From Acidimicrobiaceae bacterium (GTDB lineage: Bacteria > Actinomycetota > Acidimicrobiia > Acidimicrobiales > Aldehydirespiratoraceae): a stretch of 39,814 bases of DNA. The stretch spans positions 1-39,814 of the forward strand of contig JABIQM010000119.1 of the NCBI GenBank assembly GCA_018699415.1, in the 5' to 3' direction. The position numbers were made by a program, and so were the translations under genes. How positions within the stretch are numbered: position 1 is the stretch's first letter; each line of letters starts with the position of its first letter. Below are positions 21,529 to 26,832 of the stretch, one piece after another. The notes beneath the pieces are model-generated. The model was not told the origin of the DNA, searched no databases, and saw only the letters and a list, made by a program, of their open reading frames with translations.

Positions 21529-22158
21529 TTATGTCGCAACCAGGGCTGTCATGCGCTTGACAAGTTCGTCTTCACCTATGGCACCAATCACGATTTCGAC
21601 TGCACCGTCGTCGTTGATAAACGCAAAGGCCGGTTGGCCGCTAATGCCAAATTCCTCCCAGATTTCACCGCTGATATCTGCGATGTGGGGGAATGCATCG
21701 ACGCCCATATTGGTGATGAATTGGCGCATCGGCGGGAGGTCGTCGCGACTGGCGACGCCGACCACGTTTACTTCATCGGCAAATTGTTCCTGCACCAGTG
21801 CGACCGCACCGGATTCTCTGACACAACTTGGTCACCAGGGCGCCCAAAACCACAGGACAAGATCTTGCCCGGCGTAGTCGCCAGAGTTGAACTGTGAGCC
21901 ACTGATGGTTACACCGTCGTAGCCCAAGGGCCAGTCGAGACCGGCAGTGTCGCTTGCCGGTGGGTCATTAGTCGACTCTTCGGTCTCGGCGGCGATATCG
22001 CTTTTAGTATCGGGATCGCTGACGGTTTCAGGAGTCAGGTCGTCGGTGGTGCTGCCTGAGTCGTCGGTGAACTCCTCGCTGGGCCCGCTGAAAGAGTCGC
22101 TACCGCAGGCAGCACCGAGCAGCGCCATCGTGAAAAACCAGGGGAGAATTCGCTTCAC
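21529..22158 (-). CDS. TlpA/thioredoxin-fold lipoprotein with in-frame TGA at the first catalytic Cys (candidate selenoprotein, Sec109)
   Basis: GTG start 22158, lipobox ALLGAAC, VLWFWAPW-TGA(21832-21834)-PSCVRES, downstream GISGQPAFAFINDDG (cis-Pro region); ORFs 21832..22254 and 21529..21795 are in the same frame. Confidence 0.82.
21795..21812 (-). promoter_or_regulatory. bacterial SECIS-like hairpin CCGGUGC-GGUC-GCACUGG
   Basis: 7-bp stem (one G-U) with GGUC loop; loop at nt 27-30 after the UGA. Confidence 0.7.
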
Positions 22159-22396: not shown

Positions 22397-23812
22397 GTGA
22401 GTGGGACGGACGCACTACATGATGTCGTAGTAATTGGCGGTGGACCAGGCGGTTACGCCGCTGCGCTCTATGGCGCTGGAATTGGGCTCGATGTCGGGCT
22501 CGTCGAAAACAACATCCTTGGGGGAACATGCCTCAACGTCGGATGCATCCCGGCGAAAGAACTTCTGGAGACGGCCCACGTCTTCCGCACTGTCCAGCAC
22601 GCGGCCAAGTTCGGTGTGAACGCATCCGAGCCAGAGCTCGACTGGTCGATCACTCTTCAGCGAAAGCAGGGGATCATCGACCAACTCGTCGGCGGACTCG
22701 CCAGCTTGCTGAAGTCCAAGAAGGTCACAGTCTATGACGGCACCGGCTCGCTAGGCCCCAATCGTTTGGTCACTATCTCTGGCGCCGATGGGCGGCAGCT
22801 CACGATCACCGGTAACTCGGTCATTCTGGCTACTGGCTCACAGCCTCGCACTATTCCTGGCTTTGAGATCGACGGTCGGCTTGTCGTGACGTCTGACGAG
22901 ATGCTCTCGATTCCTGAACTCCCCGCCTCAGCCGTTGTCATAGGAGGCGGGGCTATCGGCTGTGAGTTCGCATCGATGATGGGCGACCTCGGCGTCGACG
23001 TCACCGTCCTCGAAGCCCTCCCCCAGATCCTCACAGGCTGCGATCCCGATGCCACTCGCGTTGTCGAGCGATCGTTCAAGAAGCGCAAGATCATCACTCG
23101 GACGGGAGTTCTGGTCGGCGGCCACACCCCATCGGCTGATGGCCGATCCACCACCGTTGCGTTTGGCGATGGTGAGTCGATCGCCGTCGAACTCATCGTC
23201 ATGTCCGTCGGTCGGCGCCCCTATTCAGACCTCCTCGGACTTGAAGGCACTGGGGTCCGGCTCGATGAGCGTGGATTTGTTGTTGCCGATGGTCGATGTC
23301 GCACCGATGAGCCAGGAGTATGGGCCGTAGGTGACATCATCAACACTCCCGCGCTCGCTCACGTGGCATTCGCAGAGGGCATGCTCGCGATCCGCGACAT
23401 TCTCGGTGAGGAACCGACCCCGCTGGACCATCACGGCACACCCTGGTGCATCTACTGCCATCCCGAGGTTGCCTTCGCCGGCCATACCGAAGAATCTGCC
23501 AAGGAAGCGGGCTTCGACGTTGTCACGTCAAAGCACTCCTTCATTGGCAATGGCCGCGCCAAGATCGTCGGGGAGACCGACGGCGTGGTGAAGGTCGTTG
23601 CTGAGAAACGTCCCGACGGCACCGGAGGTCGAATCCTGGGCGTCCATATGGTCGGCCCGTGGGTTACCGAACAACTCGGCCAGGGTTACCTCGCTGTCAA
23701 TTGGGAGGCCACCGTCGATGACGTGGCCGCCTTCATTCAACCCCACCCCACCATGAGCGAAATGTTCGGCGAGACCGTTATGTCGCTCACTGGCCGTTCG
23801 CTGCACGGCTGA
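22397..23812 (+). CDS. lpd: dihydrolipoyl dehydrogenase (E3)
   Basis: VVVIGGGPGGYAAAL, GGTCLNVGCIPAKELL, C-terminal AFIQPHPTMSEMFGE; SD GAGGAGGT at start. Confidence 0.94.
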   Translation: MSGTDALHDVVVIGGGPGGYAAALYGAGIGLDVGLVENNILGGTCLNVGCIPAKELLETAHVFRTVQHAAKFGVNASEPELDWSITLQRKQGIIDQLVGGLASLLKSKKVTVYDGTGSLGPNRLVTISGADGRQLTITGNSVILATGSQPRTIPGFEIDGRLVVTSDEMLSIPELPASAVVIGGGAIGCEFASMMGDLGVDVTVLEALPQILTGCDPDATRVVERSFKKRKIITRTGVLVGGHTPSADGRSTTVAFGDGESIAVELIVMSVGRRPYSDLLGLEGTGVRLDERGFVVADGRCRTDEPGVWAVGDIINTPALAHVAFAEGMLAIRDILGEEPTPLDHHGTPWCIYCHPEVAFAGHTEESAKEAGFDVVTSKHSFIGNGRAKIVGETDGVVKVVAEKRPDGTGGRILGVHMVGPWVTEQLGQGYLAVNWEATVDDVAAFIQPHPTMSEMFGETVMSLTGRSLHG

Positions 23813-25138: not shown

Positions 25139-26832
25139 CCACCGCCGTCGACCTTGACCCGAGCCTGCGGGTCCGCTGGCTCGGCCGAGTTCGCTATCTC
25201 GACGCGCTGGCGCTTCAGCGTCAACTCGTCAAGGGTGAAGACGATCACCTACTCCTACTTGAGCACGACCATGTGATCACGCTGAGCAAGCGGACGCCGG
25301 CCGAGCACCTCCTAGTTGATGTAGAGGCGCTTGGCGCTGATGTTGTCGCCACTGATCGGGGCGGTGACATCACCTATCACGGACCCGGTCAGCTTGTCGG
25401 CTACCCGGTTCTCACCGTTGCCGGTAAACGGGGTGGAGGTATGGCCGACACCGCCGTCTATGTCGAGGGCATCGAGCAACTTCTGATCGACGTTCTCGCA
25501 GATCTCGGGGTTGAGAGCGGACGGATACATCGATCTACGGGAGTGTGGATCGATATCGACGGGCTTCGACCACGCAAGATTGCAGCTATTGGTGTGCGTA
25601 TCACTCGAGGACGATCCATGCACGGGTTTGCCCTCAATGTCGATCCCGACCTGGCCTGGTTCGATCGCATCGTTCCCTGCGGCATACCCGATAGGGGTGT
25701 TACGTCGTTGGTGGCTGAGGGGATTGATGTCTCGATGCGCGAGGTTGTCGACCTGGTTGTCGCCAAAGCTGCCGACTACTGGGGCCGGGCTCGACCGGTC
25801 GATCGTGCCGATGTCGCATGGCGGGTTCCGGCCTCCGACCTGGCACCGTTCACTCGGGGCGAAGGGGCAGGCACGCCCGTCGGTCGACAAGGTATTGGCT
25901 ATGGCGAACAAGCGGACGGCACGTCGGTCCGGCTGCTCGGGAGGCTTGCCGAAGCTGGCGTTGCGGCCGACCCCGTCAGGCTGAAGTCCCGCAAACCTGA
26001 GTGGATGCGAGTGCCGCTGGACACTGGTCCGAAGTACCGCGAGATCAAGAAGACGATGCGCGAACTTGATCTGGTCACCGTGTGTGAGGAGGCCGGTTGT
26101 CCCAACATCTCGGAGTGTTGGAACGATGGCACCGCTACCTTCATGATCCTCGGCGAGCGTTGCACTCGAGCCTGCGGTTTCTGCTTGGTCGACACGCGAA
26201 AGCCAGTTGCCGCTGACCTCGATGAACCGGCGCGCGTGGCGGAGGCCGTCGACCGTATGGGGCTACAACACGCGATAGTCACGATGGTGGCGCGCGACGA
26301 CCTCGTCGACGGGGGAGCATCAGTCGTTGCGGAAACTATTCATGCCATCAGGGCACAGGTTCCATCGTGTCGTGTTGAGGTGCTCGTCTCCGACTTGAAA
26401 GGAGACGACGACTCTCTGCAGACGGTTTTCGATGCTCGACCCGATGTGTTTAACCACAACATCGAAACCGTGGCGCGGTTGCAGCGCGCGGTTCGGCCTT
26501 CAGCTGGTTATGCGCGTTCGTTGTCGGTGCTTGCTCGGGCCAAGCACGCCGGACTCGTCACCAAGTCATCGATCATCGTCGGCATGGGCGAGACAGAGGA
26601 TGAAGTCGTCCAGACGATGTCTGACCTCGCCGCCAGCGGCGTCGACATAGTCACCATCGGCCAGTATCTTCGCCCGACATCCCACCACCTGCCTGTAGCG
26701 GTTTGGTGGGAGCCGAAGGTATTCACCCGCTGGAAGAAACAGGGAGAGGCCATGGGTATCGCTCACGTTGAGTCGAGTCCGCTCACACGCTCCAGCTATC
26801 ACGCTCGCGAAGCCGCCGACGCTGCGGAGTAG
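25135..26832 (+). CDS. LipB-LipA fusion: octanoyltransferase + lipoyl synthase (probable CTG start; track shows 25273..26832)
   Basis: LipB: LRVRWLGRVRYLDALALQRQLV, RGGDITYHGPGQLVGYPVL. LipA: CEEAGCPNISECWNDGTATFMILGERCTRACGFC...HLPVAVWWEPKVF; single open frame. Confidence 0.85.
   Translation: MTTAVDLDPSLRVRWLGRVRYLDALALQRQLVKGEDDHLLLLEHDHVITLSKRTPAEHLLVDVEALGADVVATDRGGDITYHGPGQLVGYPVLTVAGKRGGGMADTAVYVEGIEQLLIDVLADLGVESGRIHRSTGVWIDIDGLRPRKIAAIGVRITRGRSMHGFALNVDPDLAWFDRIVPCGIPDRGVTSLVAEGIDVSMREVVDLVVAKAADYWGRARPVDRADVAWRVPASDLAPFTRGEGAGTPVGRQGIGYGEQADGTSVRLLGRLAEAGVAADPVRLKSRKPEWMRVPLDTGPKYREIKKTMRELDLVTVCEEAGCPNISECWNDGTATFMILGERCTRACGFCLVDTRKPVAADLDEPARVAEAVDRMGLQHAIVTMVARDDLVDGGASVVAETIHAIRAQVPSCRVEVLVSDLKGDDDSLQTVFDARPDVFNHNIETVARLQRAVRPSAGYARSLSVLARAKHAGLVTKSSIIVGMGETEDEVVQTMSDLAASGVDIVTIGQYLRPTSHHLPVAVWWEPKVFTRWKKQGEAMGIAHVESSPLTRSSYHAREAADAAE

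Follow-up and report, generated by a model that had tools for sequence, protein, structure and literature searches.

The window, that is, the whole stretch of 39,814 nucleotides that was analyzed (contig JABIQM010000119.1 of the Acidimicrobiaceae assembly GCA_018699415.1), carries on its minus strand a gene for a thioredoxin-like protein in which a TGA codon stands in frame at the position of the first catalytic Cys. The features of the locus are the following:

21529..22158, minus strand: predicted selenoprotein gene, with a GTG start, 209 residues including U109 when TGA is translated as U, and a TAA stop
22105..22158, minus strand: predicted lipoprotein signal peptide VKRILPWFFTMALLGAAC, with Cys18 as the putative lipidation site (from the sequence and a similarly placed Cys in orthologues)
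21832..21834, minus strand: in-frame TGA, predicted to encode Sec109 where the WAPWCxxC site has its first catalytic Cys (from translation and homologue alignment)
21823..21825, minus strand: TGT codon of Cys112, the predicted resolving Cys of U-P-S-C (from the sequence and the homologue column)
21795..21812, minus strand: predicted bSECIS hairpin with a 7-bp stem, CCGGUGC/GCACUGG, including one G-U (from covariation, RNAalifold, codon-preserving shuffles and a covariance model)
21802..21805, minus strand: apical loop GGUC of the bSECIS, invariant in 33/33 orthologues
22397..23812, plus strand: lpd, dihydrolipoamide dehydrogenase, divergent neighbour (from Pfam; adjoining the gene in 12/12 same-family loci examined)

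When TGA was translated as U, the frame opened with GTG at 22158, ran through VKRILPWFFTMALLGAAC with Cys18 and through LVLWFWAPW to the TGA at 21834-21832, and continued as PSCVRESGAVALVQEQF...GISGQPAFAFINDDG...VAT to the TAA at 21531-21529. This amounts to 109 residues up to and including U109 and 100 codons past the TGA. The original prediction of a single minus-strand gene from 22158 to 21529, with a lipobox start, a TGA and 100 more codons, was re-read identically by translation, and its placement of the TGA exactly at the first Cys of the thioredoxin site, giving UPSC, was confirmed both by translation and by the homologue alignment. The 209-residue product consists of a predicted lipoprotein signal peptide, a low-complexity linker and a thioredoxin-fold domain with the active site WFWAPW-U-PSC. 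The TlpA/thioredoxin-like identity first proposed for it was borne out by Pfam, in which the joined protein matched Redoxin (54 bits), AhpC-TSA (49.8) and Thioredoxin (35.6), each above its cut-off. The column of Cys112 was occupied by Cys in every aligned homologue except one UxxU protein. When the six frames of the window were scanned for 30 open codons leading into a stop, followed by xxC and then by 60 open codons, five such stretches were found in total, the selenoprotein locus among them, and no thioredoxin-like sequence was present in the other four.

The beginning of the protein had been read as a lipoprotein with the lipobox ALLGAAC. The lipoprotein reading was strengthened by the orthologues, most of which have Ala/Gly-rich lipoboxes of the ordinary type at the same place, and nearly all of which have a Cys after a hydrophobic stretch (lipobox-like) at the equivalent place. 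The motif itself fared less well, as it reads LGAAC and its residue -3 is a non-canonical Gly, not Leu. The product is most likely, as far as these sequences indicate, a lipoprotein whose domain faces outward on a lipid anchor. Regarding gene order, the divergent genes lpd-sucB-lipBA lay beside the gene in 12/12 same-family loci fetched for this comparison, and these loci are therefore vertical orthologues. LipB (octanoyltransferase) and LipA (lipoyl synthase) of the window, at 25273-26832, apparently form a single-frame fusion, the length of which is conserved in relatives.

The genome family of the host contained 26 close homologues, spread over 24 of its 51 genomes, each with exactly one in-frame TGA and none with Cys. 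Direct reading of 24 of those 26 loci showed WFWAPW-TGA-xxC in every case, with the TGA at the catalytic codon. A tRNA-Sec was detected in 23 of the 24 genomes carrying a close homologue, the exception (G019) being a 92% complete assembly. The closest Sec homologues came from Acidimicrobiia MAGs (L023-L028), and nine further TGA homologues were obtained from other Acidimicrobiia MAGs. TGA occupied this codon in 33/33 aligned Sec orthologues; in 72 Cys homologues, most of them belonging to other actinobacteria, the codon was TGC or TGT. Residue 109 was Sec or Cys in the homologues, which did not end at that position. Past the TGA, the frame extended for 97-105 codons over 43 loci, and for 99-101 in almost every locus with WFWAPW; dN/dS against three congeners was 0.11-0.23; judged by these values, this part of the frame is under purifying selection.

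The proposal of a selenoprotein was also checked against the Sec machinery of the host genome (an assembly of 3.45 Mb in 333 contigs, 98.7% complete and with 5.6% contamination), and selA, selB, selC and selD were all found. One tRNA-Sec with a UCA anticodon scored above the Rfam cut-off (64 bits), SelA and SelB reached 390 and 291 bits, their genes adjoining on contig C228, and SelD reached 358 bits. The selD gene (L021, C144:3350-4285) has an in-frame TGA of its own, giving GAGUGCKLAPGEL, and SelD is a second selenoprotein of this genome; the position within GAGUGCK is where SelD usually has its Sec. Across the genome family, tRNA-Sec was present in 45 of the 51 genomes. In the window, TGA also serves as an ordinary stop and ends 11 of the 24 predicted genes.

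Downstream of the UGA, nucleotides 20-37 form the hairpin CCGGUGC-GGUC-GCACUGG, that is, the SECIS-like element of 7 bp with one G-U and a GGUC loop that was originally claimed. Its geometry fits the published bSECIS model (PMC13188914), with 7 bp, a GGUC loop, a spacing of 26 nt and an energy of -11.1 kcal/mol. In the alignment of 33 sequences, 90% of the cells of the helix (8 pairs) were paired, compared with 29-49% in slid controls. Three helix pairs had changed on both sides (C-G to G-C; G-U/G-C/C-G/U-G at one position; U-A to C-G). The covariation score was reached by 0/500 shuffles, and the same helix was recovered unaided in the RNAalifold consensus. The mean number of pairs formed in the set was 6.55 of 7, against 4.95 ± 0.17 (sd) in codon-preserving shuffles, and at the same place the Cys homologues formed 3.1 of 7 pairs and had no fixed loop. 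A covariance-model search of the host genome gave a single strong match, at the hairpin (69 bits, E 2.7e-11), the next match having an E of 0.47, and revealed no further selenoproteins there; an Rfam scan of the hairpin gave no match. Taken alone, the helix of the window gene was only modestly above codon shuffles (P 0.10 for its 7 pairs and P 0.03 for the energy of the hairpin), and the strength of the evidence for the predicted SECIS comes from the orthologue set. Within that set, one pair is broken in the orthologues L124 and L125, whose hairpin, at -5.4 kcal/mol, is weaker than the -7.5 of the published model (PMC13188914), one of the inner pairs is C-A or C-C in many orthologues, and the global minimum-energy fold of several single sequences differs from the hairpin.

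The TGA might be taken for a sequencing or assembly error, or for a nonsense mutation that marks a gene in decay, and the 333 contigs and 5.6% contamination of the source assembly would be compatible with this. Isolated in-frame TGAs do exist in relatives, such as that in the CcdA gene of G020 (L187, G020:C36:11748-12368). This gene was considered as a second selenoprotein and rejected, as its TGA replaces a Gly of LSLVTGLEV that is kept in relatives, and is not conserved; it is probably an error or a lesion, in contrast to the conserved TGA of the Sec gene. The latter occurs at the same codon of 33 aligned homologues, and its recurrence in independently assembled genomes excludes a base-call error. 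The SECIS is conserved alongside it and, together with the purifying selection past the TGA, the recurrence ruled out both the error and the pseudogene, to which we attach next to no credence. Nevertheless, an in-frame TGA by itself does not name the amino acid, and the codon could be read under a reassigned code or by near-cognate suppression inserting Trp or Cys. Reassignment was ruled out by the use of TGA as the normal stop of 11/24 window genes. Furthermore, the complete Sec machinery of the genome, the identity of the replaced residue as the catalytic Cys and the SECIS that follows it, absent from the Cys homologues, make any decoding other than Sec very improbable. We consider, with a probability of roughly 0.9, that the gene encodes a genuine selenoprotein, with Sec inserted at its UGA (21834-21832). 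The original inference to this effect is backed by the Sec machinery, the conserved UGA, the covarying SECIS and the conserved downstream frame, and these elements, together with the fold, are well supported at the level of sequence analysis.

The AlphaFold model had a pLDDT >90 over most of residues 81-209, and the residues before 81 were unstructured. A Foldseek search with this model ranked DsbF first (3ios; TM 0.92 on the target, rmsd 1.0) and MPT53/DsbE second (1lu4), ahead of ResA; in phmmer, 3ios (5.8e-32) and 1lu4 (1.2e-21) were followed by ResA (1.5e-09). Of the thioredoxin superfamily, DsbF/MPT53 come nearest to the protein in sequence and in predicted fold. The following mechanism is proposed for it. 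The SelB and tRNA-Sec of the host would decode the UGA as Sec under the direction of the SECIS with the GGUC loop, which lies 20-37 nt past this codon. The protein would be exported and probably lipidated at Cys18, facing the outside of the membrane, where it would work as a DsbF/DsbE(MPT53)-type thiol:disulfide oxidoreductase. The U109 selenolate would attack the disulfides of putative substrates and C112 would resolve the selenenyl-sulfide, nucleophile and resolver being assigned from the known thioredoxin mechanism. Electrons would most likely be supplied by a CcdA/DsbD-type membrane protein, both the partner and the direction of flow being presumed, and the protein would serve outside the cytoplasm as a fast reductase or as a thiol-disulfide exchanger in repair.

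A DsbD_TM/CcdA protein was found in 49 of the 51 genomes of the family. The host CcdA gene (C51:10995-11627) lies beside a Cys-type TlpA lipoprotein paralogue, and the Sec gene is not adjacent to it. A VKOR-coupled disulfide-forming system was considered and rejected, as VKOR, the oxidase searched for, had no match in the 98.7% complete host assembly and was found in only 2/51 family genomes. For the DsbE/DsbF of M. tuberculosis, the proposed partner is DsbD or Rv2877c (PMC3853704). The near absence of VKOR, the nearly universal CcdA and this proposal favour a reductase fed by CcdA, a role that we infer to be, on balance, the probable one. Instead, the selenoprotein could act as a DsbA-like extracytoplasmic oxidant that forms disulfides, its oxidised state being restored by oxygen or by a quinone-linked enzyme; a selenol, which generally favours a reduced, nucleophilic role, and the count of VKOR against that of CcdA weigh against such an oxidant, which seems rather unlikely. 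It does draw on the nearest fold being that of DsbF, and on the closest solved relatives, DsbE and DsbF, which in vitro fold hirudin oxidatively and do not reduce insulin (PMC3853704), a behaviour that argues against a purely reductive role. The Pfam matches to AhpC-TSA and Redoxin would also suit a peroxidase or detoxifier, either peroxiredoxin-like or acting on organic hydroperoxides or metals, not on protein disulfides. This function is improbable given the UxxC motif, which is not the TxxU given for Sec peroxiredoxins (PMC13188914), and the profile and fold, both nearest to the DsbF/ResA/TlpA group.

The family was also surveyed in 395 sampled genomes of the class (E 1e-22 or better, the TGA position being checked in the fetched loci only) and was present in 68 of them. 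Among the 81 matches listed, 64 had one TGA, two had two TGAs and 15 had none. Across Acidimicrobiia, members of the family with Sec and members with Cys occur, as well as one with Sec-xx-Sec. The tree, made from few columns by a quick method, needed 7 Sec/Cys changes, at least two of them forced by well-supported branches. The Sec-xx-Sec protein (L171, G319:C36:9088-9474, minus strand) has two in-frame TGAs, WFWAPW-U-PH-U-RAE, by which both catalytic Cys are replaced (UxxU), and a GGUC-loop hairpin follows; the second match with two TGAs is at G358:C8:93859-94248. The tandem of L183 (G093:C154:60571-61722), in which a Cys paralogue (WFWAPWCSVC) and a Sec paralogue (WFWAPFUSVC) lie together and the Sec copy has the GGUC hairpin, is a natural recent Sec/Cys pair.

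A sister branch with WFWAPH-U-PTC was read in 10 copies, with tandem pairs in several genomes. Among the sister paralogues at L127-L132 (WFWAPH-U-P[TI]C; genomes G010, G016, G011, G002, G004 and G009), two copies often follow each other at a distance of about 1.1-1.4 kb; one of the two has a lipobox, and the other comes after an Ala/Glu-rich and Thr/Pro-rich stretch. No GGUC hairpin was present at the equivalent place in this branch, which often has a different candidate SECIS, GCCGGAG-AGAGG-CTCCGGC (in several), and the SECIS architecture therefore turns over within the family. It is possible, although we hold this view tentatively, that Acidimicrobiia maintain a CcdA-fed, lipid-anchored extracytoplasmic Sec redox system nearly without VKOR, and that the diversification of the TlpA/DsbF family (into UxxC, UxxU and Cys forms, with two or more SECIS architectures) is thereby a main reason why the lineage keeps Sec decoding.

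Standard gene callers should split or cut the gene at the UGA, and a conserved extracytoplasmic redox protein of an environmental class that is widespread is probably hidden in present annotation. The locus would add the DsbE/DsbF disulfide enzymes of Actinomycetota to the range of selenoproteins, with vertical retention of Sec over a whole genome family, and the natural Sec/Cys pairs and the Sec/Sec protein offer material for testing how an exported enzyme with a thioredoxin fold profits from Sec. Were the hosts aerobic, this retention would count against the view that selenoproteins are rarely kept by aerobes.

Regarding known systems, the bSECIS of E. coli fdhF is a short hairpin that directly follows the UGA and has GGUC as its loop. 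The SECIS predicted here is a similar short GGUC hairpin, which differs in stem sequence and distance. The WAxxUGC ResA-like selenoprotein (NCBIfam NF041054) of the UGC-containing TlpA family is likewise a ResA/TlpA-like selenoprotein, but its motif is UGC where that of the window protein is UxxC, and the latter scores 19.8 against a cut-off of 300. Proteins with UxxC have been catalogued as a "Thiol-disulfide isomerase-like protein" from the Sargasso Sea (PMC1088965), as Prx-like/Trx-like classes of GOS (PMC2398784) and as "Redoxin family protein, PF08534, UxxC" (Table 1 of PMC13188914), and UxxC thioredoxin-fold selenoproteins are already known as a kind. The window protein shares with these entries Sec at the first position of the CxxC site and membership of the redoxin/TlpA superfamily; the entries (representatives, e.g., HEU0032618.1) are set apart by their descriptions, which name no DsbE/DsbF clade, lipoprotein or Acidimicrobiia. 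In the open-licence papers searched, a part of the literature, nothing relevant was found on selenoproteins of Acidimicrobiia or Ilumatobacter, nor any paper describing UxxC thioredoxin-fold selenoproteins in Acidimicrobiia or as DsbE/DsbF, and a clade-wide extracytoplasmic DsbF-type Sec protein appears to be unreported there. The closest comparison is with DsbF (Rv1677, 3ios) and DsbE/MPT53 (Rv2878c, 1lu4) of M. tuberculosis, which, like the window protein, have a single extracytoplasmic thioredoxin-fold domain with a WFWxPWCxxC-type site and Q-P before the cis-Pro loop (identity 41% to DsbF and 35% to DsbE/MPT53; rmsd 1.0-1.1). Unlike them, the window protein has a SECIS, a long low-complexity linker after the lipobox and, in place of the dithiol CxxC active site, UxxC with Sec for the first Cys; it is a Sec variant of the DsbF/DsbE (MPT53) family and not a standard member.
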